A stretch of 64,000 nucleotides of DNA, from NCBI GenBank assembly GCA_014239555.1, contig JAAZYR010000008.1:62001-126000 (forward strand), in the 5' to 3' direction. A program made the translations under genes and the position numbers. Shown here piece after piece: positions 50,803 through 51,580 of the stretch. Position 1 is the first letter of the stretch, and each line of letters begins with the position of its first letter. The notes under the pieces were generated by a model that had not been told where the DNA came from, did no database searches, and was given only the letters and a program-made list of their open reading frames with translations. The DNA comes from Acidimicrobiales bacterium. Its GTDB lineage: Bacteria > Actinomycetota > Acidimicrobiia > Acidimicrobiales > Poriferisodalaceae.

Positions 50803-50896
50803 TGATTCCCTCCCCGGTTTCTGAGGACAGCGTAGAGATCTAAACCGAGACGTGCCTATGGCAGTCTGGAGTAGATCTCTATTGGAAGAATGAAGT

Positions 50897-51580
50897 GTGG
50901 CTGCAGTGGGACCTGAGCTTGATCTGACCTACTGGACGATCATGCGAGAGATGGTTGCAACCGGAGTCGCTCCGCATTACGCGGAATTAGCTCCCCAACT
51001 TGGGATCTCTCCATCTGAATCGTTACGGCGGATAGAGCGGATCATGGAGTTAACACCTGGTTGGATGCATCCAGGTACCGACTACATCGCTTCATTCCCG
51101 CCTTTCAATAACCAGCCGACTCCATACCGAGTAGCAGTTGACGGGCGACAACGTTGGTTTGCCCAATGTGGTTTCGAGGCATTGGCGTGCTCCTGGTTTT
51201 TCCCGGGAAAGGTCGTGCATATTGACGCTCCGTGTCTGCTAGGTGATTCGCCGCTGCATCTCGAAATGCGGGACGGAGAGTTGCTTTTGGCGGAACCTGA
51301 AACTGTAGTCGGATACACCCGAAGTCGGCTGGGGATGGAGGAACCCAATCAACCGTTTCGGTGAGGCGGCATGAATTTGTTCAGGTCTGAACAACACGCA
51401 CGAAATTGGAATGAATGGAATGAGGAACTTTGCTGGACTCTTCACCCAGTCGTCTGGTGGGTTGAGACTTTCGGAATGTCCATATTCCGCAATCGTGCTC
51501 GACCGGACTTTATGACATGGCTCGCAGGGGAGGAAGGCGCCGAAGCTATGACGCAACTTCGCGCACGGGTATCGGGATAG
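50897..51580 (+). CDS. MerB (alkylmercury lyase)-like protein, predicted selenoprotein with in-frame UGA
   Basis: Read straight through, this frame encodes 227 residues with TGA at codon 156 (51362-51364). The layout is MerB-like: an N-terminal winged helix (HYAELAPQLGISPSESLRRI), PTPYRVAVDGRQRW, a cysteine at 91 in AQCGFEALAC, then VHIDAPCLLGD. After the TGA comes MNLFRSEQHARNW, like the C-terminal MerB region. By ungapped comparison from memory, C91 matches MerB Cys96 and the TGA matches catalytic Cys159; Asp99 is Glu94 here. A SECIS-like hairpin follows at the right distance, so selenocysteine is predicted. GTG at 50897 is preceded by GGAAG and an upstream in-frame stop. No mer genes are nearby, so the substrate is unknown. 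Conventional reading would give two proteins (155 and 69 residues) or a pseudogene. Confidence 0.8.
51377..51394 (+). promoter_or_regulatory. Bacterial SECIS-like hairpin for UGA decoding
   Basis: TTGTTCA (51377-51383) and TGAACAA (51388-51394) form a perfect seven-pair stem with loop GGTC. The loop begins 19 bases after the TGA at 51362-51364. Bacterial SECIS elements need a stem-loop close behind UGA with G in the first loop positions. From memory the E. coli fdhF element has AGGUCU at its tip, about 18 bases after UGA, the same bases as here. The bulged U of the E. coli element is not evident. Binding by SelB is inferred. Confidence 0.78.

Follow-up and report, generated by a model that had tools for sequence, protein, structure and literature searches.

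A MerB-like gene with an in-frame TGA at a catalytic-cysteine position, predicted to encode a selenoprotein in an Acidimicrobiales genome

A MerB-like gene divided by a single TGA

The window (the whole stretch of 64,000 nucleotides analyzed here) carries on its forward strand a MerB-like gene (positions 50897 to 51580; GTG start and TAG stop) that is predicted to encode a protein of 227 residues with selenocysteine (Sec) at residue 156. In the ORF listing, a single frame contains two ORFs, at positions 50897 to 51364 (155 amino acids) and 51371 to 51580 (69 amino acids), and the sole stop between them is the TGA of codon 156 (positions 51362 to 51364, forward strand), followed by two Gly codons; the residues around the predicted Sec are R155-U156-G157. 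The GTG at position 50897 is the first start downstream of an in-frame TGA at positions 50891 to 50893, and the genuine stop is the TAG at positions 51578 to 51580. An earlier note on this DNA had described two same-frame stretches split by one TGA and two Gly codons, in agreement with the ORF listing, and had read both halves as one MerB-like protein, which is upheld by a match to Pfam family PF03243 that spans the TGA (residues 71 to 177). Other TGA-split frames in the window appear to represent adjacent genes or spurious frames whose stops are ordinary.

The read-through product matched PF03243 with an E value of 1.5e-16 and a score of 61 bits, above the gathering cutoff of 27, as did all of its aligned relatives (57/57). 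A PDB sequence search with the window protein matched MerB2, and the profile of the 57 relatives found MerB chains, in which Cys96, Asp99, Cys117, and Cys159 correspond to Cys91 (codon TGT, positions 51167 to 51169), Glu94 (positions 51176 to 51178), Cys113 (positions 51233 to 51235), and residue 156, respectively, all encoded on the forward strand. The earlier note had placed the TGA on Cys159 by ungapped comparison, and Cys91 on Cys96, and the profile alignment to solved MerB chains gave the same two assignments. The AlphaFold model of the window protein, built with Cys substituted for Sec, had a pLDDT of 94.9 and a pTM of 0.91, its least certain part being the Sec-bearing loop (residues 141 to 160; pLDDT of 75 to 80). 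The 11 PDB structures matched at an E value of ≤0.001 were all MerB or MerB2 (TM scores, 0.47 to 0.69), and identity to tested MerB across the structure match was ~17%. Among 128 distinct homologues, catalytic positions 96, 159, and 99 were C/U, C/U, and D/E in every case (128/128).

Some relatives depart from this layout elsewhere in the protein. Three Sec forms (L111 to L113) have Trp in place of the Cys117-equivalent cysteine, and in genus g4 (L027 and L029 to L038) the Sec MerB domain is joined to a C-terminal extension of ~147 residues with no Pfam match.

The neighbors of the gene are pheS, pheT, and genes for a hydroxyacid dehydrogenase, a glyoxalase-like protein, an SDR, a CaiB-type CoA transferase, a carboxyl transferase, and PhyH. 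No mer genes were found among these neighbors and no conserved operon was seen, only lineage-level synteny with general metabolic genes. The host genome contained no second MerB and no canonical MerA above the cutoff, the paralogues that were detected scoring 311 bits against the required 454. These negative results and the metabolic neighborhood speak against a straightforward part in mercury resistance.

The downstream hairpin and the selenocysteine machinery

A SECIS-like hairpin, TTGTTCA-GGTC-TGAACAA (positions 51377 to 51394, forward strand; loop at positions 51384 to 51387), begins 15 nucleotides past the T of the TGA and consists of a 7-bp stem with the loop GGTC (GGUC in RNA). In most relatives the corresponding hairpin is CTCTTCC-GGTC-GGAAGAG. 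Because no Rfam family matched the hairpin, covariation and codon use served as the tests for it. In 25 diverse sequences, 94.9% of cells were paired, compared with 43 to 62% when the partner was slid, double-sided changes occurred in 5 of the 7 stem pairs, and the covariation score was reached by none of 500 shuffles. The loop GGTC was present in 97 of the 102 distinct Sec forms and in none of the 26 Cys forms. Likewise, at least 6 stem pairs were formed in 97/102 distinct Sec forms, whereas 3/26 Cys forms had 6 pairs and 0/26 had 7.

The stem and loop also fix the choice among synonymous codons: Arg was encoded by CGG or AGG in 56 of 58 cases inside the hairpin versus 34% elsewhere, and Ser was encoded by TCG or TCT in 56 of 56 cases versus 43% elsewhere. 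In locus L177, Leu and Glu are both altered (CFRSEAH) and the stem pair is retained. For the window gene alone, 0.8% of synonymous-codon draws yielded 7 pairs together with this loop, and the single-sequence fold of its hairpin was unexceptional (z, −0.86). The Escherichia coli fdhF SECIS, the query sequence of which was confirmed, shares with the window hairpin the core CAGGTCTG and the same GGUC loop, with GGTC lying at +21 to +24 from the UGA in fdhF and at +22 to +25 in the window. However, the window hairpin differs from it in stem sequence and length and shows no lower stem. Taken together, the pairing, covariation, loop, codon use, and likeness to fdhF support the reading of this hairpin as a SECIS and putative SelB target.

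The earlier note had called for a search for the Sec machinery in the same genome, and all four components were present. The host genome, from a marine actinobacterium (2.7 Mb, 95.6% complete), contains a tRNA-Sec scoring 65.5 bits, above the cutoff, which ARAGORN also calls, adjoining selB and selA genes on contig C68, and selD. The selD frame itself contains an in-frame TGA (L018, positions 1531 to 1533) in the context HGAGUACKL, and the host SelD is therefore probably a selenoprotein. Among related genomes with the Sec form, selA was found in 25/26, the exception (G100) being 78% complete. This co-occurrence partly reflects shared ancestry, since every genome of the same family has selA, but SelB was also found in all 17 Sec-form genomes tested across lineages.

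Distribution of the Sec forms

A TGA at the same codon was present in 23 genomes of the same family and order that have a full or nearly full copy, including the window's own genome, and the relatives in this set were 46 to 75% identical to the window protein. Invariant in their alignment were position 156, M159, N160, F162, R163, E165, and A168, as well as W188, F192, F197, R200, R202, and W208. The gene has the conserved TGA with conserved residues on both sides by which a selenoprotein is recognized. The conserved TGA was seen further at 40 loci in named genomes and in samples of three phyla.

The 128 distinct homologues comprised 64 with Cys96 and Sec159, 38 with Sec at both positions, and 26 with Cys at both, counts that describe what was fetched and are not a census. 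Named holders were Acidimicrobiia and other Actinomycetota, genomes labeled "Deltaproteobacteria," Dehalococcoidia (Chloroflexota), and Rokubacteria. Homologues with Cys at the TGA codon, which the earlier note had named as supporting evidence, were the 26 Cys/Cys forms, all of them more distant; close homologues ending before codon 156, which would have spoken against its prediction, did not appear, and the close ones keep the TGA there. A quick tree, built on 91 rows, placed the window protein in a clade of 38 rows with a support of 99. Sec was at position 159 in 38/38 of these rows, with double Sec in 14, and no Cys form at 159 was found in this clade. The states on the tree require ~6 changes at position 159 and ~7 at position 96, many inner branches being weak. 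In the phylum of G530, the best-scoring first 22 loci were double-Sec forms, and the next-ranked were Cys/Cys. Two distant homologues (L148 and L186) have a TGA at 159 with a poor or different hairpin and may have real stops or another form of SECIS.

Double-Sec genes, with TGA at both catalytic Cys codons, were found at L040, L068, L069, L071, L072, L075, L076, L078, L085, L089, L091 to L093, L146, and L159 to L180, and each TGA has its own hairpin. Downstream of the TGA that replaces the Cys96 codon lies a separate 6-bp stem, GCTGGC/GCTGGC, at +14 to +30, with a loop containing G-T. All 6 pairs of this stem were present in 35 of 38 double-Sec genes compared with 13 of 90 Cys91 forms; covariation is uninformative here, as the pairs hardly vary. 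A separate Chloroflexota clade (L136, L139, and L145) also has Sec at both positions (VYAAUAIDAIAV ... URxSVFFWSEEHAR), with the stem variant CTTCT-GGTC-AGAAG. Double-Sec forms would be unusual among selenoenzymes.

Predicted function and relation to known MerB-like proteins

The fold family, the codon position, the Sec machinery, and the conserved TGA with its hairpin are established by sequence evidence, and Sec is almost certainly incorporated at codon 156. Since the GGUC-loop hairpin follows 15 nucleotides later, we propose that SelB and Sec-tRNA-Sec read this TGA. MerB uses Cys96, Cys159, and Asp99: one Cys binds Hg, the other gives a proton to Asp99, and Asp99 then protonates the leaving group (PMC4525700). 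In the window protein, Sec156 would stand in place of MerB Cys159 and work with Cys91 (Cys96 in MerB) and Glu94 (Asp99). At neutral pH, a selenol exists mostly as the deprotonated selenolate. If the protein works as MerB does, this selenolate and Cys91 would together hold the metal atom of an organometal, of which methylmercury is the most likely. Glu94 would pass on the proton that frees the alkyl group, after which the metal would be taken away by small thiols or by a partner. That all 128 homologues retain C/U, C/U, and D/E at these positions favors the same kind of chemistry as that of MerB. A MerB-fold selenoprotein acting in this manner is the best explanation as a whole and a likely one. 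That the C/U/E site carries out metal or organometal chemistry is, by analogy with MerB, nearly as probable; whether methylmercury or another organomercurial would be the main substrate is an evenly balanced question. Organomercury cleavage is the likeliest function that the analogy predicts.

The main competing reading, which we hold to be a substantial possibility short of the favored one, is that the MerB-fold selenoprotein has another job, such as binding or splitting other organometals or organometalloids, thiol/selenol redox, or metal storage. Such a role would fit a gene with no mer operon around it in a genome lacking canonical MerA, the general metabolic neighbors that are shared within the lineage only, and the low identity to tested MerB, and it has a precedent in the SAO system, where a MerB-like Sec protein belongs to another proposed organometal pathway (PMC13188914). 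On the other hand, the three catalytic positions of MerB are kept throughout the homologues, and MerB without MerA is known among ordinary MerB carriers, where it is regarded as a puzzle (PMC8261052). That the TGA is an ordinary stop, leaving a pseudogene, a truncated 155-residue protein, or a sequencing error, is very improbable. A mechanical reading alone does yield two ORFs, and two same-genus copies (L043 and L044) are frameshifted, through assembly error or decay. However, this reading is already contradicted by conservation: the TGA occupies the same codon in ~100 distinct genes, residues after it are conserved, nucleotide changes are mostly at third positions both before and after it (pairwise dS being saturated), and it is accompanied by the covarying hairpin and full Sec machinery. 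The assembly error that the earlier note had considered is excluded, because independent genomes carry the same TGA. Decoding of the UGA by a tRNA other than tRNA-Sec (e.g., as Trp or by general TGA recoding) has a negligible probability, as no point in its support was found, the TGA in this gene family is confined to positions at which homologues have Cys, other genes in the window end normally at TGA, and tRNA-Sec is present.

Sec at mercury-holding residues would, if true, make the MerB-fold selenoprotein a natural selenium-mercury enzyme. Ordinary gene calling cuts such proteins at the TGA, and surveys of merB that demand Cys159 (PMC11308531) would discard them, so counts of MerB capacity in the ocean and in soils may be too low. 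Tentatively, and with somewhat less confidence than in the substrate, we suggest that a large undescribed MerB branch, with Sec at 159 or at both 96 and 159, cleaves organomercury or other organometals without MerA in marine, soil, and groundwater bacteria, and so accounts for a share of methylmercury demethylation in the environment that is missed by such surveys. One active site occurs naturally in C/C, C/U, and U/U versions, the third catalytic position being acidic throughout, and the chemical advantage of selenium is therefore directly testable.

Canonical MerB (NF033555 and NF009710; PDB 3F0O among others) and MerB2 (5C17) have a fold in common with the window protein, in which the positions of MerB Cys96, Cys117, and Cys159 are C91, C113, and U156. 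The window protein differs from canonical MerB in having Sec at 159 and Glu for Asp at 99, both conservative replacements, and thus shows Cys91, Glu94, and Sec156 instead of the canonical Cys96/Asp99/Cys159 signature. It scores below the cutoffs of the canonical models (17.1 versus 200 bits for NF033555 and 21.5 versus 193 bits for NF009710), and its gene, unlike canonical merB, is not surrounded by a mer operon.

The MerB superfamily already has one Sec-containing member in the review literature, SaoL (NF040728; motif CU) (PMC9312934 and PMC13188914), which PMC13188914 attributes to Haft and Gwadz 2023. In the literature searched, which comprised sources other than the two primary papers by Haft and colleagues, nothing relevant on Sec MerB outside SaoL was found. 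NCBIfam as of June 2026 had no model for a family of the window protein's own, the SaoL and MerB models matching it weakly, and a search of Chloroflexota for a true SaoL for comparison gave none above the cutoff. The NF040728 model is 159 positions long, and extrapolation puts MerB Cys159 at about position 160, which suggests that the Sec of SaoL may lie at or next to MerB Cys159. SaoL and the window protein both belong to the MerB superfamily with a predicted Sec and are related in sequence (21.6 bits; E value, 1.7e-4), but this score is far below the SaoL cutoff of 140 bits. SaoL has the motif CU and one Sec, whereas the window protein has R-U-G without CU and its relatives have up to two Sec residues; SaoL is part of the SAO gene set, whereas no SAO genes lie beside the window gene. 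The earlier note, which knew of no described Sec form of this family, therefore needs amending with respect to SaoL, although the window protein falls outside the SaoL model. Since SaoL precedes it and it neither matches that model nor has the CU motif, the window protein is a new Sec variant of the MerB superfamily rather than its first Sec form.
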